A program made the translations under genes and the position numbers. Shown piece after piece: positions 10,160-28,215 of a stretch of 28,860 bases of DNA; positions within the stretch are counted from its first letter, which is position 1, and the number at the start of each line of letters is the position of its first letter. Source of the stretch: a virus; IMG/VR virus record IMGVR_UViG_3300036885_000599, positions 1 to 28,860 of that record. One strand, given 5' to 3'. The notes beneath the pieces were generated by a model. That model saw only the letters and a program-made list of their open reading frames with translations. It was not told the origin of the DNA and searched no databases.

Positions 10160-10466
10160 TAAGGCAGAGCTTTATGACATGCTTGACTGCATGATTTTGC
10201 TTTGCCTTGATGGAATAGTTAAATATAAGACACGCGATGGGTTTGGGGTTCAAAGTCTTCATAATATTACTGATATCGAAACTCAGGCTCCAACTTCCTT
10301 TCAGGAGCGGTTCTTTCTTTTTATGGATATCTTAGAACCCGTCCAAGGATATGCCCTGCATTTTATCCATCATAAACACCCAGATGCGGAATATCTATTC
10401 AAGTTATTGCTGAATCTCTATAATAGTGAGGTGCAAATGGAATCTTCTTCTGAAAAAGAGATCTAG
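10122..10466 (+). CDS. Small protein of unknown function
   Basis: 114 residues; GGAG lies 5 bases before the ATG, which is inside the end of the CHC2 gene (38-base overlap). The N-terminus is basic (MYPYKKKQINAYNKAELYDM), the centre hydrophobic and aromatic (MILLCLDGIVKY, RFFLFMDILEP, LHFIHHKHPDAEYLFKLLLN). No motif recognised. Coupling to the primase-like zinc finger and position just before the portal are the only clues. Confidence 0.55.
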   Translation: MYPYKKKQINAYNKAELYDMLDCMILLCLDGIVKYKTRDGFGVQSLHNITDIETQAPTSFQERFFLFMDILEPVQGYALHFIHHKHPDAEYLFKLLLNLYNSEVQMESSSEKEI

Positions 10467-10490
10467 GCCCGTCACTAAAAGGATAAAGAG

Positions 10491-12512
10491 ATGCTGTTCC
10501 CCCAACTTGGCGCTGAATATTATGATGAAAAAGATAAAAGCATGATCGCTAAGATGTCTGCTTTTTATGCGGAAAGTATATCAATAAACCAGTCCTACTG
10601 GGGCGAGGCAGATACCGATGCCAGATTCTTTGCAGGTGATCAGACTTTATGGAACGACTTGTATGCCAACTTGCCGGCCAATAGACGCCGACAGTTTAAT
10701 TTTAATCGTATTCGGCGCGTTATTAATATGATCTCTGGTCATCAACGCCGTAACCGCAAGAGCACTATTTGTGTTCCCGTGGAAAATGGCGATGAAGAAA
10801 CGGCTGATCAATTCACTAAAGTATTTATGTGGCTCAATCAGCAAGAAGGTGTTCTTGAGACAATTTCTGAGTCATTTGAAGGCGCTTTGGTTACCGGCAT
10901 GAATTTGCTGCAGGTCTGGGTGGATTACAGATCCGATCCAGTATCGGGCAATATTAAAGTAGATAACTGTTCTTATAATTCATTCCTGATAGATCCCTTT
11001 TTTAGAAAATCTGACCTTTCTGACTGTAATGCTATATGGAAGAGATCGTTTTTAACTAAACGAGAAGCTTGCTCCTTGATGCCTGGTCATGATGATGAAA
11101 TACTTTCGATGGCGGGCGATTCTCAGCGAGACGGCAAGTTTCAGTTCATGCCCGAGACTTATAACTACGGCATGAAGAATCTTGTTACCTATGACGAATA
11201 TTACTATCGAACATATAGACCTCAAAAGATGTTAGTCGATACACAAACCGGACAAGTGATGGAGTGGAAGCATCCAGATGAAGATCGCTTAAAGCTGTTT
11301 TTGCAGACATACCCACAAATGACCGTGATTTACCAAGATATACCAACCGTTAACCTAGCGATCGTTGTTTCTGGGAAAGTGCTTTACGATGGACAGAATC
11401 CTCTGGGAATCGATAATTATCCTTTCGTTCCTGTCATGGCTTATTATACGCCTGAAATACCCTACTATCCGTGGAGGATACAAGGTGTTGTTCGAGGTAT
11501 GCGTGATGCTCAGTATCTTTATAATCGTCGCAAAATTATTGAGTTGGACATTTTCGAATCTCAGATAAACTCTGGGTTCAAATATAAAGAAGATGCCCTT
11601 GTTAATCCAAAAGACATATTTTTAAATGGGCAAGGTCGAGGACTGGCGCTTAAATCAGAAGCCCAGATGTCTGATGTTGAGCAAATCCAAGCTCCACAAG
11701 TTCCGCCATCAATGATGCAACTATCTGAAAGTTTAGCCAATGAGCTTCAACAAATCTCTGGCGTAAATGAAGAACTTTTGGGATCTGCTATGGATGAAAA
11801 AGCTGGCGTTCTTGCCATGCTTCGTCAAGGGGCTGCGCTTACTACCCTACAAGGCCTTTTTGATAAATTAGACAGATCCCAAAAACTATTGGGCAAGATT
11901 ATATTAGATATCATCCAAAATAACTTCACGCCGGGTAAGATCTCTCAGATCCTTGAAGGAAAACAACCATCGGCTCAGTTCTACAATAAAGCATTCGGTA
12001 AATATGATGCTTCTGTTGAAGAAGGGCTTAATACAACTAATCAACGCCAGATGCAACTTCTCCAATTGCTTCAACTTAAAGAAGTTGGTATTCCTATTCC
12101 CGATGATGTTTTGCTTGATGCATGCACCGTCCAGAATAAGAAACAACTTGTTGAGAAAATTACTCAAGCTCGTCAGCAACAAGAGCAAGTCGCCCAGGCT
12201 CAACAACAGGCCCAGGTTGAACAATTACAGGCTCAGGCTGAATTGGCCAGGTCTCGGTCTATGGCTGATCAGGGGCTTGGCCTTGAGCGTATGAGCCGTA
12301 TCCAAGAAAATAAGGCTTTAGCCGTTGAACGAATGGCTGCAGCTGCTAAAGATGAAGATGCTGCAACGCTTGATATGATTAAAGCCATTAAAGAGATAGA
12401 AGGAGTAGATCTTGCCCATATTCAACAATTATTATCTATGTTAAGTATTGTTAAACAGCACGAGCAAGGACAACAAAAAACAAATGCTGCCCAAGAGCAG
12501 CCAATACAATAA
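10491..12512 (+). CDS. Portal protein (P22-like)
   Basis: 673 residues, AAGGAT before the ATG. The length and sequence style fit P22-type portals: an N-terminal RRRQFNFNRIRRVINMISGHQRRNRK, a VTGMNLLQVWVDYRSDP core, NSFLIDPFFRKSDLSDCNAI, a central region with RIQGVVRGMRDAQYLYNRRKIIELD and the stem/crown region near EKAGVLAMLRQGAA. The C-terminus is a long Gln/Ala-rich helix (about residues 550-670), like the barrel helix of podoviral portals. Twelve copies would form the DNA entry ring at one capsid vertex, docking the terminase and later the tail adaptor. Position after terminase and before scaffold and capsid is standard. Confidence 0.92.
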   Translation: MLFPQLGAEYYDEKDKSMIAKMSAFYAESISINQSYWGEADTDARFFAGDQTLWNDLYANLPANRRRQFNFNRIRRVINMISGHQRRNRKSTICVPVENGDEETADQFTKVFMWLNQQEGVLETISESFEGALVTGMNLLQVWVDYRSDPVSGNIKVDNCSYNSFLIDPFFRKSDLSDCNAIWKRSFLTKREACSLMPGHDDEILSMAGDSQRDGKFQFMPETYNYGMKNLVTYDEYYYRTYRPQKMLVDTQTGQVMEWKHPDEDRLKLFLQTYPQMTVIYQDIPTVNLAIVVSGKVLYDGQNPLGIDNYPFVPVMAYYTPEIPYYPWRIQGVVRGMRDAQYLYNRRKIIELDIFESQINSGFKYKEDALVNPKDIFLNGQGRGLALKSEAQMSDVEQIQAPQVPPSMMQLSESLANELQQISGVNEELLGSAMDEKAGVLAMLRQGAALTTLQGLFDKLDRSQKLLGKIILDIIQNNFTPGKISQILEGKQPSAQFYNKAFGKYDASVEEGLNTTNQRQMQLLQLLQLKEVGIPIPDDVLLDACTVQNKKQLVEKITQARQQQEQVAQAQQQAQVEQLQAQAELARSRSMADQGLGLERMSRIQENKALAVERMAAAAKDEDAATLDMIKAIKEIEGVDLAHIQQLLSMLSIVKQHEQGQQKTNAAQEQPIQ

Positions 12513-12520
12513 GGAAGTAT

Positions 12521-12718
12521 ATGAAGATATCAATTGCATTATGTGTGGTTGGTATAGTTCTTTTAAGTTCTTTTAGTGGATGTAAAAAAAGAGATGACGG
12601 TCTAAAAAAGATAGATTGGAGCACTTCACGTCTAGCTGATATTGTTGATACGGATGAAGACGACGACAATGACCGGCGAGATCAAGAAAAACAAGATGAT
12701 TATTGGTGTGCTGTATAA
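12521..12718 (+). CDS. Small lipoprotein
   Basis: 65 residues, AAGGAAG before the ATG. Residues 1-20 are a lipoprotein signal peptide (MKISIALCVVGIVLLSSFSG) followed by Cys21, a lipobox-like FSGC. The mature part is very acidic and hydrophilic (DTDEDDDNDRRDQEKQDD), with a final WCAV. It is placed 8 bases after the portal gene. Phage lipoproteins usually act in superinfection exclusion or as outer-membrane spanins; no proline-rich spanin pattern is seen and no inner-membrane partner is adjacent, so exclusion is the better guess. Confidence 0.7.
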   Translation: MKISIALCVVGIVLLSSFSGCKKRDDGLKKIDWSTSRLADIVDTDEDDDNDRRDQEKQDDYWCAV

Positions 12719-12731
12719 TGAGAGGAGAAAA

Positions 12732-12896
12732 ATGAAGAAAAAGTCGGTTATCAAAAAGATAGAAAATAAACAAGAAAAAGAAGAAAGACGTCACGATCGC
12801 GTGGAAGAAGCTGAAGAAGCTCGCCATGAAAAGACGCACGACAAAGAAGTAAGCAAAATTATCAAGTCTATGTCGAAAGCTAAGAAGAAAAAATAA
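12732..12896 (+). CDS. Very basic small protein (Lys/Glu-rich)
   Basis: 54 residues from the ATG at 12732 (MKKKSVIKKIENK); GGAG lies about 5 bases upstream, and the longer open frame from 12642 overlaps the lipoprotein without a ribosome site. Almost entirely Lys, Glu, Arg and His (QEKEERRHDRVEEAEEARHE), ending KAKKKK, likely one charged helix. Nucleic-acid binding or capsid interior function is possible. Composition is the only evidence. Confidence 0.55.
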   Translation: MKKKSVIKKIENKQEKEERRHDRVEEAEEARHEKTHDKEVSKIIKSMSKAKKKK

Positions 12897-12907
12897 TCTA
12901 GACATGT

Positions 12908-12959
12908 GGACCAATATGGTCCGGTGGTTAGAGGTTTAACCTTGAGGCCCCGAGCCTCA
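12908..12959 (+). other. Three consecutive stem-loops in a gene gap
   Basis: GGACC-AATAT-GGTCC (12908-12922), GGTTA-GAGGTT-TAACC (12926-12941) and TGAGGC-CCCGA-GCCTCA (12943-12959) follow each other with almost no spacers. No T-run follows, so this is not a terminator. It could be an mRNA processing or stability element. Confidence 0.5.
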
Positions 12960-12981
12960 GTAACTACTTAAGGAGCCAATA

Positions 12982-13329
12982 ATGGCAAGACATCATTCAG
13001 CAAAAATGCACACGCCTCACAATGTTGAGAAAAAAGTTGTGCATCACTTGGTAAAACATACTATTCACAGCGTGCATCATGCTGGGCATGAAGGTATGTA
13101 TGAAGGTATGGAAGAAAGGCGTAAACAAGAGCGCGAAGATGCATCCCTTTTTGGGGAATCTCAACACATGTATATGGCCAACTTGCCAACCGAAGTCATT
13201 TTGAAGACGGTTGCTCGTCCATATAGCGGCATGCCAGAGAATCTTGATGATACAATGCGCGGCGTCGATCATCAAATCGGAACAGATGAAGCAGGCATGC
13301 ATAAAGACTTTGCTCCTAAGAAAGTCTAA
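12982..13329 (+). CDS. Histidine-rich small protein, unknown function
   Basis: 115 residues with AAGGAG before the ATG. The first third is exceptionally rich in His (MARHHSAKMHTPHNVEKKVV, HHLVKHTIHSVHHAGHEGMY), which could bind metal or nucleic acid. The middle is a charged helix (EERRKQEREDASLF), and the C-terminus is ordinary (PTEVILKTVARPYSGMPENL). The downstream half may be the structural core. It lies in the portal-scaffold interval, so a minor capsid or assembly role is possible. Not assigned to a family. Confidence 0.6.
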   Translation: MARHHSAKMHTPHNVEKKVVHHLVKHTIHSVHHAGHEGMYEGMEERRKQEREDASLFGESQHMYMANLPTEVILKTVARPYSGMPENLDDTMRGVDHQIGTDEAGMHKDFAPKKV

Positions 13330-13347
13330 CCACCTGAAAGGTGTAAA

Positions 13348-13503
13348 ATGCCTACAATGTTGCGTACCGACCCCAAGTTTCAGAAGATAGTCGATCAAAT
13401 CTTCGGTCGCAAACCTATCAAGCATTCAGAACATCCTGATATTGATAAGAAAAGCGAACGCGAGAAGAAGTTGACCTATGAAGAAACTATTCGCGTGCGA
13501 TAA
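13348..13503 (+). CDS. 51-residue basic protein
   Basis: A short frame with AAAGGTG 5 bases before the ATG, encoding MPTMLRTDPKFQKIVDQIFG then RKPIKHSEHPDIDKKSEREK and a charged tail ending IRVR. It follows the His-rich gene by 18 bases and fits the dense gene order, so it is probably expressed. Function unknown. Confidence 0.55.
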   Translation: MPTMLRTDPKFQKIVDQIFGRKPIKHSEHPDIDKKSEREKKLTYEETIRVR

Positions 13504-13520
13504 TCGATAATTGCCTCGAT

Positions 13521-13578
13521 GGCGGGCTGTCCTGTAGTGGTTGCAGCAGCCCGCCAAAAAATACTCAATACGTTGAGT
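13521..13578 (+). other. Strong stem-loop plus TACG-tetraloop hairpin
   Basis: GGCGGGCTG (13521-13529) pairs perfectly with CAGCCCGCC (13547-13555). ACTCAA-TACG-TTGAGT (13563-13578) follows, with a UNCG-type loop, ending 5 bases before the next ribosome site. Six A follow the first stem instead of T, so neither is a rightward terminator. Possible mRNA end-protection or processing element. Confidence 0.5.
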
Positions 13579-13593
13579 AAAATTAGGAGATAC

Positions 13594-13662
13594 ATGGCAA
13601 AGAAAGAAAAGAAAGACAAGAAACCTACTAAATCGACTGGTTATGACGAAACCTGTTATTAG
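13594..13662 (+). CDS. 22-residue micropeptide (tentative)
   Basis: MAKKEKKDKKPTKSTGYDET then CY and a stop, with a good AGGAGA site 3-4 bases upstream. It resembles the lysine-rich starts of neighbouring small proteins and could be a genuine tiny gene or a translational leader for the next gene 8 bases later. No further evidence. Confidence 0.4.
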   Translation: MAKKEKKDKKPTKSTGYDETCY

Positions 13663-13670
13663 GAAAAGAG

Positions 13671-13871
13671 ATGGCAGCAAAGAAAAAGAGCAAAGGAAAA
13701 GTCGCTAAAGTAATGACCGAGCTTAAAGAAGGCAAGTTACATTCTGGCTCTAAAAAGGGCCCTATTGTAACAAACCCTAAGCAAGGGATTGCGATAGCCT
13801 TGAGTGAAGCACGCAAAGCTGGAGAGAAAGTAAAGCCCGCCAAGGCACGCGCGCCTAAGAAAAAAAAATAG
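13671..13871 (+). CDS. Small basic DUF6496-like protein
   Basis: 66 residues, AGGAAAAG before the ATG. The central KVMTELKEGKLHSGSKKGP, NPKQGIAIALSEARKAG segment (about residues 12-50) matches my recall of the DUF6496 family, short proteins found in phages and bacteria; the ends are poly-Lys (MAAKKKSKGK; ARAPKKKK). Strong positive charge suggests DNA or RNA binding, possibly inside the capsid. Family recall is from memory and not searched. Confidence 0.65.
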   Translation: MAAKKKSKGKVAKVMTELKEGKLHSGSKKGPIVTNPKQGIAIALSEARKAGEKVKPAKARAPKKKK

Positions 13872-13943
13872 CACAAATGTCCATTTTTGCTTATATAAGA
13901 CAAGTGATAGATAAAATTACAAAATTTTTCGAAAAGATTAACC

Positions 13944-14447
13944 ATGACGAAGATCAATGGTAGGGACACGCGTTCGCGTGAAACAGTTGGTAAAATATCA
14001 ACCGAGCTATTATCAAAAGCCCCAAATTCTACCGATCCCATTGAAATAGAGCGTGAACTCCACAAAGATTACGTTAAAAACATACTTGAATGCGTAGAAT
14101 CCAACAAAAATCAGTTTGACGGGGACTTTTTTGTTATTGTGCTCACTAAAAAAGAGCCGCTCATGCAAAATGTACTACGTCATTACTATTTTTCGCGGCA
14201 TTCTTGCCCAACCCCTGATTATGATCAAACCGTTTACCAATACCACCGAGAAAAAGAAGATATAGAGTTTTTGTGGGTGATTCCATCCAAAGAAGCCTGC
14301 TTAACCTTTATGGAACAAGCTTCATCAATAGCACCAGAAGAATGGGGATTATTACACTATGTGCTGAAATTTGCCGATGGCACACTATTTAAACTTGCTA
14401 AGCAACTTAATAATGAGAAACTAGAGACATCAGAAATTATTCAATAG
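13944..14447 (+). CDS. Conserved-looking protein of unknown function
   Basis: 167 residues, weak ribosome site. The centre has a mixed fold with FDGDFFVIVLTKKEPLMQNV, HYYFSRHSCPTPDYDQTVYQ and DIEFLWVIPSKEACLTFMEQ, followed by PEEWGLLHYVLKFADG. This looks like a folded globular protein. It precedes the scaffold-like gene by 8 bases and is probably a head-region protein, although non-structural roles cannot be excluded. Confidence 0.6.
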   Translation: MTKINGRDTRSRETVGKISTELLSKAPNSTDPIEIERELHKDYVKNILECVESNKNQFDGDFFVIVLTKKEPLMQNVLRHYYFSRHSCPTPDYDQTVYQYHREKEDIEFLWVIPSKEACLTFMEQASSIAPEEWGLLHYVLKFADGTLFKLAKQLNNEKLETSEIIQ

Positions 14448-14455
14448 GGAGAGAT

Positions 14456-15178
14456 ATGTTTGATGATGAAAAAATAGTCGAAGAAACACAACCAGAACAA
14501 ACGCAACCAGAACAGCAGCCAGAACAACAAGAAGTTCCCGCCCAAGAATCACCAGTTCAAGCTCCAGTTGAAACTCCAGCTGATCGCAATTTAAGGGCGA
14601 TGGCTAAGAAGATGAGAGAGGTTGAGCGCGAGCGTGATGAAGCATTAAGATTAGCCCAAGAAAAACATGCTCCGGTAGAAGAACCAGACGAAGAGATCAA
14701 TATCGGAAATGATGATATAGCTGAAGGCAAACATGTTAAGGCCATAACGCAAAAGATAAAGCGTATGGAAGAGAAGCTAAGAAAATACGAACAGGCTTCG
14801 ACAACAATGTCTGCAGAGGCTATGCTTAAGGCCCAGTATCCAGATATAGATAAAGTTGTTACCAAGGAAAACCTTGATGCACTTCGTGAGTCTGATCCCG
14901 AGTTTGCTGAGATGCTTGATACATCTAGTTCTTTTCGGGCTAAGGCTATATCGGCTTATAAACATATTAAGAAGCTCGGACTTTACGTGGAGGACAATTA
15001 CGTGGCAGATAGAGAATTGGCGCAAAAGAACGCTTCTAAACCTAAACCTTTGGCTAGCGTATCTCCACAGCAAGGAGATAGCCCTCTTTCGAGAGCTAAT
15101 GCGTTTGCTAATGGGCTAACACCAGAGCTACAAAAACAATTGTTACAAGAGATGGCTGAAGCTAGAAAAAACAGGTAA
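14456..15178 (+). CDS. Putative scaffolding protein
   Basis: 240 residues, GGGAGAG before the ATG. N-terminus is low-complexity acidic (Glu, Gln, Pro), then a long coiled-coil helix (RAMAKKMREVERERDEALRL; AITQKIKRMEEKLRKYEQ, about residues 45-120). The C-terminal region (PKPLASVSPQQGDSPLSRAN ... LQKQLLQEMAEARKNR) ends in a short basic helix, as needed for coat binding in P22-type scaffolds. Position between portal and capsid protein fits. Scaffolds guide procapsid assembly and are then expelled. Homology is not shown, so the call rests on composition and order. Confidence 0.75.
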   Translation: MFDDEKIVEETQPEQTQPEQQPEQQEVPAQESPVQAPVETPADRNLRAMAKKMREVERERDEALRLAQEKHAPVEEPDEEINIGNDDIAEGKHVKAITQKIKRMEEKLRKYEQASTTMSAEAMLKAQYPDIDKVVTKENLDALRESDPEFAEMLDTSSSFRAKAISAYKHIKKLGLYVEDNYVADRELAQKNASKPKPLASVSPQQGDSPLSRANAFANGLTPELQKQLLQEMAEARKNR

Positions 15179-15181
15179 CCT

Positions 15182-15319
15182 ATGAAAGTATTCCCAATTT
15201 TTCTTGTAATATTATTTCTTACCTTTATTGTTGGGTTTTTGGGAATGATTGCAGCGTTTAAAAACTTATCAGATGAAATTACGCGGCGATCTTATGAGAG
15301 AACGCTTTTTAATAAGTAA
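15182..15319 (+). CDS. 45-residue single-pass membrane protein
   Basis: Starts 3 bases after the scaffold stop; MKVFPIFLVILFLTFIVGFL and GMIAAF give a transmembrane helix (about residues 4-26), followed by a basic polar tail (KNLSDEITRRSYERTLFNK). The ribosome site is weak (CAGGT), so coupling to the scaffold gene is likely. A holin-like or envelope role is possible; a single helix with a basic C-terminus does not decide it. Confidence 0.55.
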   Translation: MKVFPIFLVILFLTFIVGFLGMIAAFKNLSDEITRRSYERTLFNK

Positions 15320-15332
15320 ATTACTCCCTGAC

Positions 15333-15361
15333 GGTTGGCGATAGTATGCTTATCGTCAACC
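15333..15361 (+). other. 11-bp stem-loop in a gene gap
   Basis: GGTTGGCGATA-GTATGCT-TATCGTCAACC is an 11-bp stem with one G-T pair and a 7-nt loop. No T-run follows. It lies 28 bases before the start at 15389, probably an mRNA element. Confidence 0.5.
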
Positions 15362-15388
15362 AACTTTCAAGAATATAAAGGAGATTTT

Positions 15389-15811
15389 GTGAACAAACTC
15401 ACCAAGATTTCTCTTCTCGTTTTTTCTTTAATAGCAATTACTGATGGACTAAATGCAATGAATCAAAATGCATCGTGCATGTCTAAGACCTGCATGTTTT
15501 TGAATTGTTGCCTTGCTGATTTGTCTGAAGTGCTTGATTTTGGCGAGCAGACACTCGAAATTGTTTTGGTTGCTGATCCTCGCGTTGCCGATAAAGCAAT
15601 ATTATCGACACTTGTAGCATTATTTAAAACAATAAGCCCTGAATTATTGGCTCTTGCTAATGCGTGTAAAAACGAAGCAAATAAAATCTCTGCAGAAGAC
15701 CAAGTAAAACTTAAGGCTTTAAATCTTATCGATGCTAATGGCCAAGTAACGAATCCAAAAGTAATAAGTACAGTTAACGCTTGCGTTAAAGTAACTCAAA
15801 AGGAGACATAA
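15389..15811 (+). CDS. Exported protein of unknown function
   Basis: 140 residues from a GTG start with AAGGAG 5 bases upstream; an in-frame TTG at 15335 lies inside the hairpin region and is unlikely. Residues 1-22 (MNKLTKISLLVFSLIAITDG) are a signal peptide. The start of the mature part is cysteine-rich (CMSKTCMFLNCC), followed by helices (EVLDFGEQTLEIVLVADPRV; ELLALANACKNEANKI) and a C-terminal Cys. Disulphide bonding in the periplasm is plausible. It is one of several exported products in the structural region. Confidence 0.65.
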   Translation: MNKLTKISLLVFSLIAITDGLNAMNQNASCMSKTCMFLNCCLADLSEVLDFGEQTLEIVLVADPRVADKAILSTLVALFKTISPELLALANACKNEANKISAEDQVKLKALNLIDANGQVTNPKVISTVNACVKVTQKET

Positions 15812-16143
15812 TGGCAGATTTTGTGGTAGCTCCAGCTAATTCAACGACTACAGCTGTTCCAACAGCACATGAATTAGTTGCTAATGTTAAAGATGCAGCG
15901 CTTGCTGCAATAAATGAACTTGTTTCTCATCACGTTAAAGGCGCTGATCTTTTGCAAAAGGGATTTACGCAAATGTGTGACATATCAACAGAAGTGGCTG
16001 ATTGGTATGAAATTTTAAAAAATCTTCTTACTGCTCTTAGGCCATTTTTTGATGTTATTGAGACATGGCTTAAAGTTGCCTATGCTCACCTTGTTGAAAT
16101 CTTCAATTGGGCGAAGGCTATGTGGAAGAAAATCTTTGGTTAG
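15811..16143 (+). CDS. Small helical protein, unknown function
   Basis: 110 residues, coupled to the preceding gene by a TAATG overlap and with AAAAGGAGA upstream. N-terminal Ala/Thr/Val-rich segment, then helices with amphipathic character (LAAINELVSHHVKGADLLQK; DWYEILKNLLTALRPFFDVI; WLKVAYAHLVEIFNWAKAMW) and a basic KKIFG end. It might associate with membranes or oligomerise. It is the last gene before the strong terminator at 16190, so it closes the portal-scaffold transcript. Function unknown. Confidence 0.55.
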   Translation: MADFVVAPANSTTTAVPTAHELVANVKDAALAAINELVSHHVKGADLLQKGFTQMCDISTEVADWYEILKNLLTALRPFFDVIETWLKVAYAHLVEIFNWAKAMWKKIFG

Positions 16144-16189
16144 ACTACTCTCCTTTTTTACTTGGGGCATAATTGCCTCTTCTTTTTTC

Positions 16190-16225
16190 GGGCCGCGATT
16201 TGAACTACCGCGGCCCTATTTTTTT
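16190..16225 (+). terminator. Strong intrinsic terminator before the capsid gene
   Basis: GGGCCGCG (16190-16197) pairs perfectly with CGCGGCCC (16209-16216), followed by TATTTTTTT. It separates the portal-scaffold transcript from the capsid unit. Confidence 0.93.
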
Positions 16226-16234
16226 AAAAAAGTG

Positions 16235-16240
16235 TATAAT
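16235..16240 (+). promoter_or_regulatory. Capsid-gene promoter -10 element
   Basis: A perfect TATAAT preceded by GTG lies 10 bases after the terminator T-run. No TTGACA-like -35 is visible at 16-18 bases upstream (GC-rich stem there). Start of transcription would be near 16247, giving a leader of about 160 bases with the three repeats. Confidence 0.6.
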
Positions 16241-16247
16241 AGTATTA

Positions 16248-16345
16248 GCGTTACGAGGAGTTCGCAGGCCTCAAAAATCGCGTTACGTGGAACTCGCAGG
16301 CCACAGCGTTACCACCCTCGGGTGTACGGGGAACTCGCAGGCCCC
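16248..16345 (+). repeat. Three repeated stem-loops with compensated base changes in the capsid leader
   Basis: Unit pattern GCGTTAC..GNGG-AACTCGCAGG-CCNC. Stems: GAGG/CCTC (16255-16258, 16269-16272), GTGG/CCAC (16287-16290, 16301-16304), GGGG/CCCC (16328-16331, 16342-16345). The loop is AACTCGCAGG in units 2 and 3 and AGTTCGCAGG in unit 1. The second base pair changes A-T, T-A, G-C. Unit 3 has 15 extra bases before the stem, including CACC-CTCG-GGTG. Paired changes point to selection for RNA (or cruciform) structure. Confidence 0.75.
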
Positions 16346-16408
16346 AGACGTTAATTCTAAGCCTCGTCAACTTAGTTGTTGAAGTTATTTTTAACACTAA
16401 GGAATTCT

Positions 16409-17356
16409 ATGCCTATTACAACTACATCGGTACTTCCATCGCCAGTGCAACAGAGCTTTAGTTATAAGCTCCTGTCGGTTCCAGTACCAAATATGATCCA
16501 TAAGATTCCAGCAATGCATAAAGCAATGCCTAGGAATGGTGGTCGTACGTTGCGTATGCGTCGATACAATCCATTGGCTACCGCAATGGTACCACTTGGA
16601 AATAGCGGCGTAACTCCTCCACCTCAGCTATTGACCGCCGTAGACATCGATGCTACAATATCATTTTACGGAACCTACGTCCAGATCAATGAACAGGTGA
16701 CGTTACAATCTCAAGATCCCGTGCTCAACGAATGCGCGGCTCGTCTTGGTGTTTCACTTCGTCAAACAGAAGATCAATTGACTCGTGATATGCTTGCTTC
16801 TACAGCATCAACGATTAATTGTACGGCTGGTGCAAATGGTGATTCCCCAACAGAAATCACTCGAGCAGACGTTGATGAAGTGGTTAGAACATTGTTAAAT
16901 AACAATGCTTACACCATTTTGGATAACATTGAAGGTGAAGATAAGTTCGGTACAGCACCAGTTCGTGATGCGTACTTTGCACTTACTTCTACCCAAATGA
17001 CAGGTAATCTTGATGCGGTTGCTGGTTTCATTCATAAGAACCAATACCCATCACCAATGAATGCCCTTCGATCTGAATGGGGTTCAATTGGAAACTTAAG
17101 ATTCTTGGTATCATCGATTGGTTCAGTAAGCCCACAATCTTCTGTTAATGGCGCAGATGTGTATAACATTTTCTGTGTTGGTATGGAAGCTTATGCCTGT
17201 ATTGAGCAAGATGGTTATAGCGCAAGCTTTATCTATCGCCCACCAATATACGATGGTCCATTAGCTCTTAATGCTAGCGTCGGTTATAAGTTCGCTGAAG
17301 TCCCAAGAATCTGTAACGATTTGTGGATTATCAACCTTAAAGCCACATTAGCGTAA
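16409..17356 (+). CDS. Major capsid protein, N4-gp56 family
   Basis: 315 residues from the ATG at 16409, chosen because AAGGA lies 7 bases upstream; the longer open frame from 16376 has no ribosome site. The sequence matches the N4-gp56-type coat protein layout: GGRTLRMRRYNPL, an extended TISFYGTYVQINEQVTLQSQ region, ECAARLGVSLRQTEDQLTRD, the central TRADVDEVVRTLLNNNAYTI, a YFALTSTQM segment, and a C-terminal domain with RFLVSSIGSVS, GMEAYACIEQDGY and the final WIINLKATLA. These proteins adopt the HK97 fold and build the capsid shell. It has its own promoter element, a structured leader and a downstream terminator after the next gene, fitting a need for very high expression. Confidence 0.9.
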   Translation: MPITTTSVLPSPVQQSFSYKLLSVPVPNMIHKIPAMHKAMPRNGGRTLRMRRYNPLATAMVPLGNSGVTPPPQLLTAVDIDATISFYGTYVQINEQVTLQSQDPVLNECAARLGVSLRQTEDQLTRDMLASTASTINCTAGANGDSPTEITRADVDEVVRTLLNNNAYTILDNIEGEDKFGTAPVRDAYFALTSTQMTGNLDAVAGFIHKNQYPSPMNALRSEWGSIGNLRFLVSSIGSVSPQSSVNGADVYNIFCVGMEAYACIEQDGYSASFIYRPPIYDGPLALNASVGYKFAEVPRICNDLWIINLKATLA

Positions 17357-17368
17357 TAGGAGATAAAC

Positions 17369-18418
17369 ATGGCTACAAACACAACTATCCAACAGGGCGT
17401 GTTAACCGCTACCGGTAACAACCTTTGGATTCCTTTAATTAATGGCGCAGATTGGGTTGAAGTTGTTAACTATACCCAAACGATCGCCTCTACCCAATGG
17501 GCAGCAACAAAGTTCTACTGGCAATATGGGATGGCTCAAGATGATGCTCTTCAAGAGTTTCACTCTACCGCTTCCCAAATTGTTTCAACGAGCTTTTGTT
17601 CAACTGGTTATAATGGTGCTACTTATCATGGGATAAGCGCAGTTAATACCAGTGCTCAGACAATTGGAGCAGCTATTGCTGTAACAGGTGTTACTGCAGC
17701 TAACCCTCCTCTTGTTCAGACCGGTACAACGACTGGGCTTATTCCAAATAAGTCTGTTGTTCGTCTATCTGGTCTTACAACTGGTCCACAAATGTGTGGA
17801 ATTGATTTCAGTATTGGCGCAGTGGTTCCTACAACAAGCTTTTCGCTTGCTCATATGCCACAACCAATAGCTGGCGGAACAGGATTCTATCGACAAATCC
17901 AATATCCATCATTGTACTATCCACGTCGTCGTTACATTACACAAGTAACAACGGGTGTAACAACAACTTTAGTTACATCAGTAACGAACAGTTTCAATGT
18001 TGGTGAGTCTGTAAGATTTGTTGTTCCTGCAGCATTTGGTATGACCCAACTTAATGGTCTTCAAGGAACAGTTCTTGCAGTAAACCAAGTTGGCACAACA
18101 GGAAATAACACGGTAACCGTAGATATTGACTCATCTGGGTTTAACGCGTTTGTATTCCCATTGGCCGCTGCGGTTCCGTTTAGTTATGCTGAAATTATCC
18201 CTGTAGGTGAAGATACGGCTATTGCATTGGCTCTTAATGCCAATATTTTAGCTGATTCGACAGTTAACACGGGATGGACAGGAATTATATTAGGAACAGA
18301 TTCATCGGCAGCAGCAGTTGCGTTAGGCAGTGCTGGCGGTACGTCTGGCGATGTAATTTATTGGAGAGCTGGTAGCTCATTCAATAATCTCGTTCAGCCT
18401 ATTCCTGCAGTATTTTAA
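17369..18418 (+). CDS. Probable capsid decoration/head protein with FCCH-like beta domains
   Basis: 349 residues, AGGAGA before the ATG, 12 bases after the capsid gene and ending before the terminator at 18453, so expressed with the coat at a high level. N-terminus ATNTTIQQGVLTATGNNLWI is bristling with beta and polar residues. Two FCCH-like beta modules are visible: NPPLVQTGTTTGLIPNKSVV to TTSFSLAHM (about 112-163), and about 190-265 with GESVRFVVPAAFGMTQLNG and FNAFVFPLA. The second resembles the protein at 19134-19538. The C-terminus has small-residue-rich GTDSSAAAVALGSAGGTSGD. Decoration or major tail protein are the main options; adjacency to the coat gene favours decoration. Confidence 0.65.
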   Translation: MATNTTIQQGVLTATGNNLWIPLINGADWVEVVNYTQTIASTQWAATKFYWQYGMAQDDALQEFHSTASQIVSTSFCSTGYNGATYHGISAVNTSAQTIGAAIAVTGVTAANPPLVQTGTTTGLIPNKSVVRLSGLTTGPQMCGIDFSIGAVVPTTSFSLAHMPQPIAGGTGFYRQIQYPSLYYPRRRYITQVTTGVTTTLVTSVTNSFNVGESVRFVVPAAFGMTQLNGLQGTVLAVNQVGTTGNNTVTVDIDSSGFNAFVFPLAAAVPFSYAEIIPVGEDTAIALALNANILADSTVNTGWTGIILGTDSSAAAVALGSAGGTSGDVIYWRAGSSFNNLVQPIPAVF

Positions 18419-18452
18419 TCAAGCGTAATTGTGGTTTAACACATTTAATGTG

Positions 18453-18485
18453 TAGGGAGGGATTAATCTCCCCTCCCTATTTTTT
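18453..18485 (+). terminator. Intrinsic terminator after the capsid unit
   Basis: TAGGGAGGG (18453-18461) pairs perfectly with CCCTCCCTA (18471-18479) around a 9-nt loop and is followed by six T. A small CACAT-TTA-ATGTG hairpin precedes it. It closes the two-gene capsid transcript. Confidence 0.92.
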
Positions 18486-18504
18486 AGGACCATTAGGAGA
18501 CAAG

Positions 18505-18939
18505 ATGGCAAGTGATAATAAAAATATGGAAAATAAAACAACAAGTTCGCCTGTTAAAGAAGCAAAGACGCCCGTTAATCTTAAGTATCAACACGATAAA
18601 GATCGCGAGAACGTTAAGGGGATCTTTAGGTTTTATGAAGTTCCAGGCGGATCAATGAGTTTTGTTTTTAAAGTGTACAAAGAAGATCCAGTAGCGCGCT
18701 ATGATTTAGTTGATGGTCAAGTTTATACGCTTCCTCTTGGTGTTGCTAAGCATCTTAATAAAAACGGCTGGTATCCAGTACATGTACACTCAGTTGATGA
18801 AGGCGGCAAACCATTGGCTCGAATTGGACAAAAAGTAAGACGTTTTGGCTTCCAGAGCTTGGAATTTGTTGATATTGAAGATTTGAATATCGGTGATAAA
18901 CAAATAATAACCGTAGAACATATAGAACCAATGAGATAA
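18505..18939 (+). CDS. Probable head/tail structural protein, unknown role
   Basis: 144 residues from the ATG at 18505 (MASDNKN) with AGGAGA upstream; the longer frame from 18448 runs through the terminator. A disordered Lys/Thr/Asn-rich start is followed by a beta-rich core (GIFRFYEVPGGSMSFVFKVY; RYDLVDGQVYTLPLGVAKHL; NKNGWYPVHVHSVDEGGKPL; GQKVRRFGFQSLEFVDIED). The style is that of conserved podoviral structural proteins. It opens the tail gene block. Confidence 0.6.
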   Translation: MASDNKNMENKTTSSPVKEAKTPVNLKYQHDKDRENVKGIFRFYEVPGGSMSFVFKVYKEDPVARYDLVDGQVYTLPLGVAKHLNKNGWYPVHVHSVDEGGKPLARIGQKVRRFGFQSLEFVDIEDLNIGDKQIITVEHIEPMR

Positions 18940-18942
18940 AAA

Positions 18943-19137
18943 ATGATCGTGTTAGTTACAGTATTTAGTGTTACAGTTTTAGCAACACCTCCAGAAGAAC
19001 CAATTCAACCGGATATCGACATAATTGTTCTGGATGATGAAGATGATTTTAAGCCTCGGCCTATGCTAGACCCAGACTTTGAGTCAGATTTAAAAGAATA
19101 TTGTAAGTATGAAGATATCGATCTAGGAGAACGATGA
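18943..19137 (+). CDS. Small acidic protein with signal-like N-terminus
   Basis: 64 residues starting 3 bases after the preceding stop, weak ribosome site. MIVLVTVFSVTVLATPPEEP is a short hydrophobic, signal-peptide-like start without basic N-region; the rest is highly acidic (DIDIIVLDDEDDFKPRPMLD, DFESDLKEYCKYEDIDLGER). It overlaps the next start (ATGA). Export is uncertain. Function unknown. Confidence 0.5.
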   Translation: MIVLVTVFSVTVLATPPEEPIQPDIDIIVLDDEDDFKPRPMLDPDFESDLKEYCKYEDIDLGER

Positions 19138-19538
19138 GCACGTGTTTCGTGAATCCAAATGCATATTTCTACCCAGTGGCTCGGCTTATCTTGTCTATTT
19201 CTCAGTCATCGCCAGCAATCATAACCACGACCAACAATACACAGGTTACAGGAGGAGTTTTAGTAGCAGTTGCGGCTCCCCATGGTTATGAATCAGGACT
19301 TACTGTGAGATTAGATATTCCCGTTGCATGTGGTATGCAACAGTTGAATGGATTTGCTGGCGAGATAATCGTCACAAGTCCTACAACGTTTACGATAGCC
19401 GCTGATACGACCAAATATGACCCATTTGTGATCCCATTGGCGCCTATACCCCCTTGGGCCCAGACATGTGCTCAGGTAGTTCCCTTTGCAGAAGACAATA
19501 GTATGTTAACAAGTGCAGTTCAGAATATTTTACCTTAA
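19134..19538 (+). CDS. FCCH-like beta-domain structural protein, paralogue of the 17369 C-terminal part
   Basis: 134 residues, AGGAGA before the ATG, overlapping the previous stop by 4 bases. FYPVARLILSI, then GGVLVAVAAPHGYESGLTVR, GMQQLNGFAGEIIV (about residues 67-80) and FTIAADTTKYDPFVIPLAP reproduce the second module of the 17369-18418 product in order (YYPRRRYITQV, GMTQLNGLQG, FNAFVFPLA). Such domains are common add-ons in virion proteins. Likely a minor head or tail component. The duplication is visible; its role is inferred. Confidence 0.65.
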   Translation: MSTCFVNPNAYFYPVARLILSISQSSPAIITTTNNTQVTGGVLVAVAAPHGYESGLTVRLDIPVACGMQQLNGFAGEIIVTSPTTFTIAADTTKYDPFVIPLAPIPPWAQTCAQVVPFAEDNSMLTSAVQNILP

Positions 19539-19546
19539 GGAGTAAT

Positions 19547-20605
19547 ATGCCAGTAGCCCCAGATACCACATTATCGACCTTACAGCAGATTAATATTAAG
19601 GTACGTAGACTGACAAGGTCGCCTTCAGCATCTCAGATTACTGATAGCCAAATCAACGATTACGTTAATACGTTTATCCTGTATGACTTACCAGAAAATC
19701 TAAAGATATTCTCGCTGCACAAGACGTTTTCATTCTATTGTAATCCCTATATTGATCGGTATACGACTAATACTACTAACCCCAACGACCAGTTCTACAA
19801 TTTTAAGAACCAGTATCTCAGCATCGAGAAACAGATAACTATGGCCGGATTTCCAGCTATGTTATCCGAATCGCGTGAACAATTTTTTGGTATCTATCCA
19901 CTTACTTTTAGCATTAATGCTATAGCATATGGCGATGGTGTTACAACTGCTTATACTGGATATCTTGCAAGCGCTCAAGCTGGTTTTGGTGGTGGATTTG
20001 TTCCTATTATTCGAAATGAAGTACTTTTTAGTTCTGTCGATATAAACAATAACGGACTATCTATAATTGACCAGCCTCGTGCAAATTCAGACCTTGGCGA
20101 CTTGATTATCCCAACAAGCATCTATAATACTTCACCAACAAATGTCGGATTCATCAATTATATTACGGGGCAATATGGGTTCTTCTTTCCAGTGGCACCC
20201 CAAAGCCAAGCGGTAATTAATAGCCAGACAATACCATTCGTTCCAGCAAGACCTCAAGCAATGCTCTATTTTGACGATACGTTCATTTTAAGACCTGTTC
20301 CTGACCAACCATATAAGATAACTATGGAATGCTTTACACGGCCATCTGTATTGCTGGCATCTACTGATGTTCCGCAACTAAGTGAATGGTGGCAATATAT
20401 TGCTTATGGAACAGCCAAGAAGATATTTGAAGACCGTATGGACACAGAATCACTTCAGATGATCATGCCTGAGTTTAAAAATCAAGAACGCCTTGTATTG
20501 CGTAGAACTATTGTTAATGCTGCTTCTGAGCGAACTTCTACGATCTACACAGAACAAGTAGACATCTCAAGTGGAATTTCTGGATGGGGCGGAAATAACG
20601 TTTAA
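19547..20605 (+). CDS. Probable head-tail adaptor/tail protein
   Basis: 352 residues, AAGGAG before the ATG. N-terminal part STLQQINIKVRRLTRSPSAS, QITDSQINDYVNTFILYDLP followed by FSLHKTFSFYCNPYIDRY is helical then beta, and the C-terminal region (RPQAMLYFDDTFILRPVPDQ; WWQYIAYGTAKKIFEDRMDT; QERLVLRRTIVNAASERTST) is a helical end like those of podoviral adaptor/connector proteins that sit between portal and tail. The middle has a Gly-rich insert (GFGGGFVPII). It stands between head genes and the large nozzle-like gene. Family assignment from memory, moderate. Confidence 0.6.
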   Translation: MPVAPDTTLSTLQQINIKVRRLTRSPSASQITDSQINDYVNTFILYDLPENLKIFSLHKTFSFYCNPYIDRYTTNTTNPNDQFYNFKNQYLSIEKQITMAGFPAMLSESREQFFGIYPLTFSINAIAYGDGVTTAYTGYLASAQAGFGGGFVPIIRNEVLFSSVDINNNGLSIIDQPRANSDLGDLIIPTSIYNTSPTNVGFINYITGQYGFFFPVAPQSQAVINSQTIPFVPARPQAMLYFDDTFILRPVPDQPYKITMECFTRPSVLLASTDVPQLSEWWQYIAYGTAKKIFEDRMDTESLQMIMPEFKNQERLVLRRTIVNAASERTSTIYTEQVDISSGISGWGGNNV

Positions 20606-24529: not shown

Positions 24530-26974
24530 ATGGCACAAATTATTAATGATCCTTATGCAAGAGGTGGTGGGCTTGGTGCTGCTTTTGGTGGTGGTCTGGG
24601 AGCAGGATTAAATCAAGCGCTTCAGCATAAATTAAATGACATACTGGACACACAAAAACAGTCAAAATTATCCAAAGCATTGCAACAAACTGGTAATTTT
24701 AGTCCACAGCAAGCAGAAGTCATATCAATGTTTCATGCCAATCCTGTGGCAGCACAAAGAATGATGGCATTATTTGGTCAACCAGCCGAAGAACAACAAC
24801 AGCAAATTCCTCAACAAATGCCAATACAGCAAATAGATCAAACTGGCATCGATAATCTTCAAAAATTGATGGCACCACCACAACAACAGCAATTCCAAAA
24901 TCCTATGATTGAAAATGCTATGCAATCAATGGGTATGGCGCATGGACAACCAGGGCAACCTGGATATATGCCAAATTTCACCCAGGATCAACTTTCTAAG
25001 ATTCTTGGACAACCAACGCCAGAAGAAGCAAATCAACCATTATTGCCAGAAAGAATGCCAATTCCTCAAGTAGGCGGAGAAGTTCCAGCACAGGCCGGAT
25101 TTGGAACACAAAGACCAAGAAAGACATTCGGTGCTTTTGGTGAAACTCCTCAAATGCAACTCGCTCGAGAAAAACTTGCACAACAAAAAGAAACAGTTGC
25201 GCAGAAAAAAATTGATTCTTCTAATAAAAAATTTAAAGAGAGTCTATCAAAGTCATATATGGATGCATTTAATATGCGCCAAAGCGCCGAAGAAGCGCTT
25301 GGACTTATTGAAACAGGGCAAACACGTTCTGGATTAACAGGATATGCACCTTTATGGGGTGCTGGCGCAGAGACTAGAGAATTAGCTAAGATATACGAAG
25401 ATTTAGCATTAAGTCTTTCTGCTTCTCAGCGTGGTCCATTATCAAAGGCAAAGATAGTGGCCGCTCGCGCTACTAAACCAAGTCTTGATATGCCTATTGA
25501 AGCGCAAAAATATATGTTAAATCGAATAATCGATAAAGCCAATCGAGAAGGCATTGCGCTTGATGATATATCGGAAAAAATAATTGCCGATAATGATGGC
25601 AAAGAACCGGCTGATTTAGAGCAAAAAGTATTGCAAGAATGGAAAAAGATTTATATGCCAGGTGGAAAAGTTGCAGCGCCAATAAATCCGTCAGGTGGTT
25701 CTACTCCTCCAATGAATCAACCAGAGAATGCCGTTGAATATGCAACAAGGTTGGCCGGTGGTGTAGGTTCCAGAATTGGAGCTGGCGCTGTTACGGGATT
25801 GGGAAATATCGCTTCAGCAGGTCTTGGCGTAGCAAATTATTTAAGTGGCGGAAAAACTCCAACCTATTCTGAAATACAAGCTAAGTTGCCAATTTCGGCT
25901 CCCACATCTGAAGATGCTTCAAAAAAGTTGTCTGAATGGAGTAAGGGATATACTGATCCACGATCTAGTTTTGAGAATACACTTTATGATGTTGCTGAAA
26001 CATTTGGATCTATTTTTATGCCAGGAGCTGCTTTAGGAAAAGTATCTAACGTATTACAAAAAGTAGGAGTTTCTGCGGCTAACGCATTAAAGACAGGTAA
26101 AATTCTTATGCCATTTTCGGGAATAAATGTTCCGTGGAAGAGAGCGCTTGGTATGGCAGCAGCTGGAGAAACTGGTAAGAAAACTGCAGAGGCATTTGGT
26201 GCTGGACCAATTGGACAAACAGCCACAAGCTTAGCCTTTACTGTAGCGGCTGGTTATCCTGGCCCGAGAAAAGCATTTGCTCAAGAAGCAGCCAAGTCTT
26301 ATGAAACTGCTAAAACAGCATTTGCTGATGATACAGTCAATATAAAAGATCTTGAATCTGGGGTTGCAAAACTTAAGAGCAAGTTTGTTAGAGAAAATAT
26401 TCCACACAAAGCAGAGCTGGATGAAATTATTAGTGGCGTTGAGAATTCATTGGCACAATCTCCAAATGGTGAAATGAGTGTCAATGAACTTATTAACATG
26501 AAACAAGGTCTTAATGCTCGATATGGTTGGTCTGAATCGCCTAAAATAACTGGAGATAGATCTTATTTGCCCAAGGAATTAAGAAAACCATTAGGCGAAT
26601 TAATAGATGAAGTAAAACAACCAATTGCTAAAGCAGGGTTGAAAAATCCTCAAGGAGGAATCCCATTTGCTTTAGCTGATGATATAACCAAGGGGTTGAG
26701 TAAATCAAGCGCTACTACGCAATGGCTTAGAGAGCATAGCAAATTATATAGGCACGGTCATACACTTCCAGCAATACTCATGAGAATGACAACAGGCGCT
26801 GGATTATTAGTTCCAAAAGAAATATCACAAATGCGTGATTTTTTTAAGGCATATCCTGCAGCAAGGAAATATTATTGGAATGTTCTTAAAGCAGCAAAAG
26901 AAGAGAATAAAGCAGCATTAGTCAAGAATATGGCGAATTTAGACAAGATCGCTCGCAGCCAAAAGAAAGAATAG
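24530..26974 (+). CDS. Large internal virion/ejection-type protein
   Basis: 814 residues; ribosome site GGAG, starting 1 base after the previous stop. N-terminal Gly-rich start (GGGLGAAFGGGLGAGLNQAL), a long Gln/Pro-rich linker, a helical domain (about residues 215-370), then glycine/alanine-rich hydrophobic stretches that could insert in a membrane (GSRIGAGAVTGLGNIASAGL; FGSIFMPGAALGKVSNVLQK; LGMAAAGETGKKTAEAFGAG). The C-terminal 250 residues are helical and basic. The pattern suits an injected pore protein. No peptidoglycan hydrolase motif was seen. The stop abuts the stop of the leftward RHH gene. Confidence 0.6.
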   Translation: MAQIINDPYARGGGLGAAFGGGLGAGLNQALQHKLNDILDTQKQSKLSKALQQTGNFSPQQAEVISMFHANPVAAQRMMALFGQPAEEQQQQIPQQMPIQQIDQTGIDNLQKLMAPPQQQQFQNPMIENAMQSMGMAHGQPGQPGYMPNFTQDQLSKILGQPTPEEANQPLLPERMPIPQVGGEVPAQAGFGTQRPRKTFGAFGETPQMQLAREKLAQQKETVAQKKIDSSNKKFKESLSKSYMDAFNMRQSAEEALGLIETGQTRSGLTGYAPLWGAGAETRELAKIYEDLALSLSASQRGPLSKAKIVAARATKPSLDMPIEAQKYMLNRIIDKANREGIALDDISEKIIADNDGKEPADLEQKVLQEWKKIYMPGGKVAAPINPSGGSTPPMNQPENAVEYATRLAGGVGSRIGAGAVTGLGNIASAGLGVANYLSGGKTPTYSEIQAKLPISAPTSEDASKKLSEWSKGYTDPRSSFENTLYDVAETFGSIFMPGAALGKVSNVLQKVGVSAANALKTGKILMPFSGINVPWKRALGMAAAGETGKKTAEAFGAGPIGQTATSLAFTVAAGYPGPRKAFAQEAAKSYETAKTAFADDTVNIKDLESGVAKLKSKFVRENIPHKAELDEIISGVENSLAQSPNGEMSVNELINMKQGLNARYGWSESPKITGDRSYLPKELRKPLGELIDEVKQPIAKAGLKNPQGGIPFALADDITKGLSKSSATTQWLREHSKLYRHGHTLPAILMRMTTGAGLLVPKEISQMRDFFKAYPAARKYYWNVLKAAKEENKAALVKNMANLDKIARSQKKE

Positions 26975-27124
26975 TTACTGATATTGAGCATCTTTTTTGA
27001 TTTGTTCTAATATAGCTGCAATTATATATTTCTTAATCGACAAGTGTTTAAACAGAGCCTGCTCCTTAATCTTATGGTGCAGGCTTTCTGGTATCTCTAC
27101 ATAAATAACTTTTTGTTCTTCCAT
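26975..27124 (-). CDS. Ribbon-helix-helix (Arc/MetJ-type) DNA-binding protein
   Basis: 49 residues on the minus strand: MEEQKVIYVEIPESLHHKIK, EQALFKHLSIKKYIIAAILE, then QIKKDAQYQ. The pattern beta-strand (VIYVEIP), helix, LS-turn and a second helix is a textbook ribbon-helix-helix. AGGAG lies 6 bases before the ATG. Its stop is directly next to the stop of the rightward 24530 gene, so the two are convergent with zero spacing. Upstream, a perfect 18-bp palindrome (27157-27174) lies between it and the divergent fibre gene at 27220, a fitting operator. It may regulate itself and the fibre genes. It is the only leftward gene in the late half of the window. Confidence 0.78.
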   Translation of the reverse strand: MEEQKVIYVEIPESLHHKIKEQALFKHLSIKKYIIAAILEQIKKDAQYQ

Positions 27125-27156
27125 GACTATCTCCTAGATATCTATGATTATTTACA

Positions 27157-27174
27157 GAACTTACCATTAAGTTC
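27157..27174. promoter_or_regulatory. 18-bp palindromic operator candidate
   Basis: GAACTTACCATTAAGTTC: 7-bp perfect half-sites with a 4-bp centre. It lies 33 bases upstream of the RHH start and 45 bases upstream of the fibre start. A second shorter palindrome TAGATATCTA is at 27135-27144. RHH proteins commonly bind such short inverted repeats. Confidence 0.55.
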
Positions 27175-27175
27175 A

Positions 27176-27191
27176 CGCTCTTAATAGAAAA
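27176..27191 (+). repeat. 16-bp copy of a segment of the abnormal tRNA-like gene
   Basis: CGCTCTTAATAGAAAA is identical to 9641-9656, which spans the end of the D-stem and the anticodon arm of the tRNA-like element. Here it lies between the palindrome and the fibre-gene ribosome site. Confidence 0.55.
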
Positions 27192-27219
27192 TTAACTCTT
27201 TTTAAGAAGGAAATTTAAC

Positions 27220-28215
27220 ATGGCTCAACAGATTCAAGATACTGCGTATGGTCTTAGTCAGGCTATATTAGCGGTAAATCCAAATCCAATTATCAGCGTA
27301 AGAAATCCAAAAACTAATGACAAGGCGCAACTTGGCCAAATGTGGATCAATAAAAATACAGCGATTGTATTCTTTTTAGCCAGGATCGCTAATAATACTT
27401 ACTACTGGTCACAAGGCGCTTCTGTTGTAGCTGCATTGGCTATTGCTGGTGCTGCAACAATTGGCACAACCCTCACGGTAACTGGCCTTACCACATTAAA
27501 TGGCGGAGCTACAATTGGAACAGGACTTACCGTATCTGCTGGTGGTGCAGCCATTACAGGCAATTCTTCAGTAACTGGTACTTTCGGGGTAACCGGCGTA
27601 ACAACGCTTACGGGTGCTACAAACGTTGTTGGCGCTATACATGCTACAACAACTATTACGGCCGGCACAGGGCTTGTTGCAACAACTGGTGGCGTTACAG
27701 CAACGGCTGGTGGCTTAACGGTCACGGCTGGTGGCGCTGCTATTTCTGGCACAACTAATATCAATACAACAACTGCTTCTACAACGGCAATTGGTCGTGG
27801 TGGAACAGGTTTATTGAATCTTGGAAACCTTACGGCTAATACATCAATTTGGGGTCTCAACGTTAAAGTAGAGCTTGGTGATGCTGCTGGCGCAGATCAA
27901 TTCCAAGTTCTTGACAACACAACAGCTGTTGTATCTTCTATCGATTCTGATGGTAACTTGACAGCTGCTTTGGGTATTACTTCAACAGCTGGCGATATTA
28001 CAGCTACGGCCGGGGATGTGATTATTTCAACAGCCACAAAGGGAATTACCCTTCCTGGACCAACGAGAATCATCAATGGCGCTGGTGCTCCTGCTAATGC
28101 CTTAGCTGTTAATGTAGGCGATATTTATATCAATACGACATCTGTTAATATTGCGACTCGTATTTATATAGCCACGGCCGCCTCGACGTGGACTAATATC
28201 GTATGCGCTGCCTAA
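27220..28215 (+). CDS. Tail fibre with beta-repeat shaft
   Basis: 331 residues, AAGAAGG before the ATG. N-terminus MAQQIQDTAYGLSQAILAVN and NPNPIISVRNPKTNDKAQLG, then GQMWINKNTAIVFFLARI...YWSQGAS, a module also seen in the 1154-1849 protein. Residues about 72-200 are a regular Thr/Gly/Ala/Val repeat (TLTVTGLTTLNGGATIGTGL, TVSAGGAAITG, TVTGLTTL, TATAGGLTVTAGGAAISG) forming a beta-helix shaft. The C-terminus (RIINGAGAPANALAVNVGDI, YINTTSVNIATRIYIATAAS) repeats the same GxxWIN/YIN-type module. An open frame on the opposite strand across the repeats is a shadow. Confidence 0.75.
   Translation: MAQQIQDTAYGLSQAILAVNPNPIISVRNPKTNDKAQLGQMWINKNTAIVFFLARIANNTYYWSQGASVVAALAIAGAATIGTTLTVTGLTTLNGGATIGTGLTVSAGGAAITGNSSVTGTFGVTGVTTLTGATNVVGAIHATTTITAGTGLVATTGGVTATAGGLTVTAGGAAISGTTNINTTTASTTAIGRGGTGLLNLGNLTANTSIWGLNVKVELGDAAGADQFQVLDNTTAVVSSIDSDGNLTAALGITSTAGDITATAGDVIISTATKGITLPGPTRIINGAGAPANALAVNVGDIYINTTSVNIATRIYIATAASTWTNIVCAA

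Follow-up and report, generated by a model that had tools for sequence, protein, structure and literature searches.

The stretch of DNA analysed here (hereafter the window) is a complete IMG/VR record of 28,860 bases that ends inside a cluster of fibre genes. Near its right-hand end, a short leftward gene for a predicted ribbon-helix-helix (RHH) protein lies between a large rightward gene and the first fibre-type gene, with a perfect palindrome between the divergent starts of the RHH and fibre genes. Morons are autonomous transcription units inserted in phage operons, and the boundaries of a putative unit of this kind are given among the features of the junction, in window coordinates:

24530 to 26974, rightward strand: gene for an 814-residue protein, ejection-type by position; left boundary of the putative moron
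26975 to 27124, leftward strand: Arc-like RHH gene, 49 residues; head and sole gene of the window's putative leftward moron
27130 to 27135, leftward strand: Shine-Dalgarno sequence AGGAGA of the RHH gene (TCTCCT on the rightward strand), read from the sequence
27147 to 27176, leftward strand: predicted weak sigma70-like promoter GTGAAC-18-AATAAT (-35 at 27176-27171, -10 at 27152-27147)
27157 to 27174, no strand assigned: palindrome GAACTTA-CCAT-TAAGTTC, overlapping the predicted -35 element and spacer; candidate autorepressor operator
27204 to 27210, rightward strand: Shine-Dalgarno-like AAGAAGG of the fibre gene, read from the sequence
27220 to 28215, rightward strand: first fibre-type gene, 331 residues, with an N-terminal part that relatives also have in their first fibre; bounds the putative moron on the right

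The RHH reading frame at 26975-27124 has an ATG start with AGGAGA upstream, its stop codon abuts that of the 814-residue frame, and past position 14456 it is the sole plausible leftward gene of the window. PHROG 582 (‘Arc-like repressor’) matched the protein with an E-value of 2.1e-5, and a leave-one-out profile of 18 relatives, with the window excluded, recovered it at E 2.5e-12. Pfam RHH families matched only below their gathering scores, with weak likeness to the ParD, HicB and CopG antitoxins, and Pfam identified no HNH nuclease domain in the 49-residue protein. When the RHH family profile was compared with PDB structures, P22 Arc was matched over nearly its whole length (E 0.0045). An AlphaFold2 model (pLDDT 92.3) has an extended N-terminus followed by helices at residues 13-25 and 30-48, and its best Foldseek matches were AmrZ, Arc-operator and CopG structures with probabilities of 0.98-1.00, at E-values that were weak (at least 0.04), in keeping with a length of 49 residues. 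As modelled, the protein fits the MetJ/Arc class, in which a strand and two helices are contained in ~45-50 residues, and operator binding as a dimer or tetramer would be predicted for it as a trait of that class. It resembles the 53-residue RHH protein Arc of P22 in size and fold (TM 0.81 between the model and the Arc-operator structure 1par), but is only ~17% identical to it by structural alignment, and its leftward gene points away from the fibre, unlike arc, which is read rightward into ant. Similarity to the RHH transcription factors AmrZ (TM 0.80-0.84) and CopG (TM ~0.68) extends to proteins with short operators, although these are bacterial or plasmid regulators from unrelated contexts. 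Together, profiles and fold model indicate that this is a genuine RHH gene, and the original prediction of a 49-residue leftward RHH gene, abutting its neighbour and alone on its strand in the late half of the window, was correct in each of these respects. Its description of that neighbour as ejection-type was right in that a large rightward gene is there; the ejection role was assigned because of position alone, the 814-residue protein having no Pfam or PHROG match of note.

Direct searches of IMG/VR with the window RHH returned no matches because the protein is short and divergent, and fibre-based searches yielded no relatives or no usable pattern. The clade was found instead through portal and tail-protein searches. 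The portal is of P22 type (Pfam, E 3.8e-78), shares only 21-24% of its aligned residues with the phage-collection records listed, and occurs at ~50-100% identity in 75 IMG/VR loci. It is also carried by six genome-collection contigs, three of them binned with Chlamydiota. Portal relatives of 56-67% identity (L283, L284 and L288) were located in metagenome-assembled genomes labelled Chlamydiia, Simkaniaceae and Parachlamydia, and other such genomes with portal relatives were labelled Methylococcaceae, Methanomicrobiales and Lokiarchaeota. These labels hint at chlamydial hosts; the binned contigs may be unintegrated phage contigs swept along with host sequence, because several are 33-40 kb, the size of a phage. 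A sister contig (G002) is 99.98% identical to window positions 1-9263 and 9500-20407 and has further fibre-like genes not in the window. Between those two blocks the window has 236 bp (9263-9500) and G002 has 563 bp, the result of a recent insertion or deletion, and a tRNA-Glu gene follows shortly afterwards at 9714-9789; at gathering thresholds, Rfam identified only a tRNA in the window. For the RHH region itself, same-species coverage stops short on both sides: contig L276/G001 ends within the 814-residue gene, and G002 matches only from window position 28267 onwards.

To examine the junction more widely, ~50 relatives (metagenomic contigs, some of them partial) were oriented, reading frames were called mechanically, the junction was defined by a fixed rule and RHH genes were detected by profile. 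An RHH gene lay at the ejection-to-fibre junction in 19 of the 22 spanning contigs, the window included, and was antisense to the late genes in all 19, which supports an RHH regulator that recurs at this place in related phages. Most of these 19 sequences also built the profile, so that the independent part of the evidence is seven genes outside it: six (G052, G054, G015, G022, G025 and G059) are antisense and precede fibre genes, and the seventh (G055) adjoins a fibre match on a contig whose gene order was not worked out. A junction RHH was absent from G035, G039 and G041, the first of which is rearranged there, and was kept in G036 and G038 even though a gene other than the usual fibre comes next. 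Conservation of position and strand places the RHH gene far beyond chance. Its sequence is much less constant, with a mean identity among relatives of 25% compared with 64% for the portal; the best single match to the window RHH, from G054, reaches 37%. Mantel tests of co-inheritance between the RHH and the genome backbone gave P = 0.55 against the tail protein and P = 0.04 against the portal. These comparisons portray the RHH gene as a conserved, fast-evolving add-on to the virion block of this uncultured, short-tailed phage. RHH genes away from the junction were few, and most were close to the ERF recombinase gene in the leftward early part of the genome. A second RHH lies there in G015 (15152-15475), G016 (3798-4004) and G022 (18043-18255), in coordinates that apply once the portal is oriented rightward.

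What lies behind the RHH varies. Nothing separates it from the ejection-type gene in the window, G008, G036 and G038, and a second, tandem RHH follows the first in G031, G044 and G046. Elsewhere the leftward cargo includes a DUF551 protein (G019, E 1.6e-9), a protein weakly similar to the C-terminal part of RecE-like exonucleases (G010), hydrophobic proteins (G010, G019, G027 and G028) and an overlapping two-gene operon (G009). In G003 a separate HNH endonuclease comes immediately after the RHH (Pfam HNH_3, E 3.5e-10), and HNH-RHH fusion proteins of ~150-165 residues occupy the same antisense position in G016 (loci L150/L151), G021 (L156/L104) and G047 (L135/L136), with G015 (L148) and G022 (L105) alike; the HNH part was recognised by profile match in G016 and by sequence in the other fusions. 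The island is AT-rich: in all 18 islands compared, GC content was lower than the average of the two flanks. Between the convergent RHH and ejection-type genes no terminator was found, and leftward transcription would therefore continue, in antisense, into the ejection-type gene.

Such cargo invites two explanations in which the RHH is a component of something larger. The HNH gene behind the RHH in G003 and the fusions would fit an RHH that began as the DNA-binding or autoregulatory part of a free-standing HNH endonuclease established at this junction, with the window retaining only that part. We regard this as unlikely: most relatives have no HNH at the junction, and in HNH-less genomes the RHH is intact and has kept its start signals and strand, whereas a relic should decay. 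Alternatively, the weak Pfam similarity to antitoxins and the overlapping two-gene operon of G009 might mean that the RHH is an antitoxin, either within a toxin-antitoxin or addiction module or on its own once the toxin had been lost. This we rate as very improbable because a partner is lacking. There is no adjacent leftward gene in the window and none in G008, G036 or G038, and the partners tested in relatives differ from one another and match no toxin family.

Promoter signals were evaluated in 22 regions separating an RHH gene from its right-hand neighbour, on both strands, against 300 dinucleotide shuffles. The sigma70 matrix followed the general consensus and was fitted neither to these phages nor to their host. 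Leftward scores, towards the RHH, were strongly elevated (z +8.3), with none of the 300 shuffles reaching the total, whereas rightward scores, towards the fibre, were in no excess (z -0.3), and the two directions differed in a paired Wilcoxon test (P = 2e-5). In the window itself the leftward promoter scores weakly (P = 0.30); strong examples are TTGACA-17-TATATT in G017 and TTGACA-17-TACAGT in G019. Across five relatives with HNH-RHH genes, no intergenic block is better conserved than the TTGACA element, the fibre start signals aside. This leftward-only enrichment favours a leftward transcription unit and speaks against the fibre having a host-type promoter to itself; a late or rightward promoter type specific to the phage is one that the sigma70 scan would miss.

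As predicted, the palindrome is present as an exact copy between the divergent starts, yet in itself it is ordinary. The window contains four perfect repeats of this geometry (7-bp arms, 4-nt loop), compared with ~2.3 expected, and 37 when loops of 0-12 are considered; shuffling of its own intergenic region gave P values of 0.09-0.35; and its 14 specified bases occur in at least 119 IMG/VR stretches, a pattern that is not specific. Nor was the proposed pairing of RHH and palindrome kept in relatives. The RHH stays and the palindrome sequence does not, some relatives having a different palindrome at the same place, an outcome that the original prediction had itself named as counting against it. 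Because the RHH is so divergent, judging the palindrome requires closer alleles of the window's own RHH.

Position is more informative than sequence. Across the 22 regions, inverted repeats overlapped the leftward promoters above shuffle expectation (z +4.1; 0 of 200 shuffles). Overlap was individually significant (P ≤ 0.05) in five of them and in none of the other 17: in the window (G000) the repeat covers part of the -35 element and the spacer (P = 0.03), in G010 TTGCACAATTGTGCAA lies within the spacer of the leftward promoter, and the others are TAACATA-GA-TATGTTA in G030, TTGACAC-N12-GTGTCAA in G034 and a perfect 24-bp repeat in G054. The excess amounted to 0.98 score units per site for RHH promoters, 0.6 for other leftward genes and 0.03-0.15 for rightward genes, and individually significant overlaps were found in 5 of 22 RHH regions versus 7 of 94 control promoters (Fisher P = 0.05), a modest difference. 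The one feature of the window palindrome that fits an autorepressor operator is its place over the predicted -35 element and spacer, which makes a role as the operator of the RHH plausible. By eye, a TAACTTA-like half-site recurs in some intergenic regions.

Taken as a whole, the feature is probably a self-regulated, RHH-headed leftward moron at the ejection/fibre junction, present in the window in a one-gene version. We infer autorepression, the palindrome's role as operator, the timing of shut-off and any benefit from the cargo, and envisage the following sequence of events. Host RNA polymerase would initiate at a sigma70 promoter located in the ~90-140 bp that separate the RHH from the following rightward gene. 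The leftward transcript would cover the RHH and also, in relatives, the variable cargo that lies beyond it. RHH dimers would then bind the short inverted repeat overlapping the leftward promoter and shut it off, which would keep an antisense transcript out of the late genes during rightward late transcription. The fibre genes would simply be read by the late transcript.

The original prediction favoured a different arrangement, a private regulatory unit in which the RHH binds the palindrome and controls fibre transcription, tuning expression or marking a cassette for fibre exchange. The location of the palindrome between divergent starts is compatible with such control. In P22, moreover, the ant moron is reported to have a possible, perhaps accidental, influence on the level of tailspike, perhaps via read-through (PMC2629481), and by analogy an indirect effect of the RHH on the fibre through read-through, as proposed for P22, could be imagined here. 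Control of the fibre nevertheless appears quite unlikely: the promoter signals point at the RHH only, the usual fibre is not behind the RHH of G036 and G038, and the variation in palindrome sequence argues in the same direction.

The self-regulated moron that we prefer has a known counterpart. In P22-like phages, the ‘ant moron’ (mnt, arc, ant and sieA) lies between ejection gene 16 and tailspike gene 9 (PMC2629481, PMC8022706); its name comes with the observation that no morons occur elsewhere in the morphogenetic cluster, and whether its location is the only insertion-tolerant site of the late operon was posed as an open question (PMC2629481). In the P22 record, gene 16 is rightward, sieA, orf59a and mnt are leftward, and arc, ant and 9 are rightward; the space from mnt to arc holds divergent promoters together with the operators of Arc and Mnt. 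The claim that a control point of this kind is not seen in standard podoviral maps was thus mistaken, because the mnt/arc/ant/sieA moron of P22-like phages occupies this very junction. Both systems share the junction between ejection and tailspike or fibre genes (with ejection assigned by position here), a leftward RHH repressor gene (mnt in P22) with a promoter overlapping an operator in a divergent region (both predicted in the window), and leftward cargo between the RHH and the ejection gene that includes a membrane protein (sieA in P22) and varies among relatives. They differ in that the window has no rightward arc or ant, nor any rightward gene between the RHH and the fibre, and no sar is known; in that the leftward RHH is nearly universal here, single in the window and tandem or HNH-fused elsewhere; and in that the present phages are a distant, mostly integrase-less lineage. 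We consider the resemblance in layout an analogy and not a demonstration of common descent.

Compared with phage morons in general, the island has an own promoter by prediction, deviating base composition and variable content, and is present in most relatives and absent from some. One family, the RHH, is common to nearly all versions, unlike morons composed of unrelated single genes. Judged from sequence, it is an antisense variable unit with its own enriched promoters and predicted transcription: a known kind of element, in a variant carried by a distinct, mostly integrase-less podovirus lineage.

The parallel with P22 could be carried further, to a secondary immunity switch that resembles immI and serves lysogeny in a temperate phage, with the prophage making the RHH. 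The junction, the RHH repressor and the membrane-protein cargo match P22 mnt/sieA, and G025 encodes a tyrosine integrase (G025:C1:15986-16474) and could be temperate. Even so, such a switch is highly improbable, as 29 of the 30 related records examined, some of them partial, have no integrase, CI-like repressors are few (HTH_3 exceeded its cut-off in 3 of 30), and no arc, ant or sar was found at the junction. The window, a fragment, likewise has no tyrosine integrase. An immunity or exclusion switch in phages without lysogeny is conceivable, though improbable. Here, a fast-diverging RHH/operator pair, transcribed from a host promoter within the late block, would govern an antisense operon whose cargo, membrane proteins and nucleases, acts early against co-infecting relatives and is then silenced; if this were so, the fusions of HNH and RHH would illustrate how a mobile endonuclease and a regulator merged into one protein.

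For the self-regulated moron, two consequences stand out. The ant moron is on record from P22-like phages of enterobacteria; here, a podovirus lineage very distant from them and represented only in metagenomes carries a variable moron of its own at that junction, supporting either a real insertion-tolerant site of this genome layout or a very old association. The relatives also supply ~20 naturally occurring RHH/promoter pairs for work on how the specificity of repressor and operator diverges.

Two further features were noticed elsewhere in these genomes. Downstream of the terminase, the window encodes a 252-residue reading frame (8023-8781) that by eye is HNH endonuclease-like, with zinc-finger-like C-terminal motifs. 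The major capsid gene is uninterrupted in the window (16376-17356), and in about half of the relatives is split by one to four inserts, mostly of ~190-1000 bp and some longer, as in G003 (L139:15027-16963), G046 (L133/L134) and L288 (15166-17952). The inserts recur at codons ~42/43, 90/91, 99/100, 155/156, 192/193 and 286/287, and reading resumes at about the next codon, as would be expected of introns. Rfam returned zero matches for the stretch with the G046 capsid inserts, and matched one G003 capsid insert to a group I intron below the gathering score (E 7e-5).
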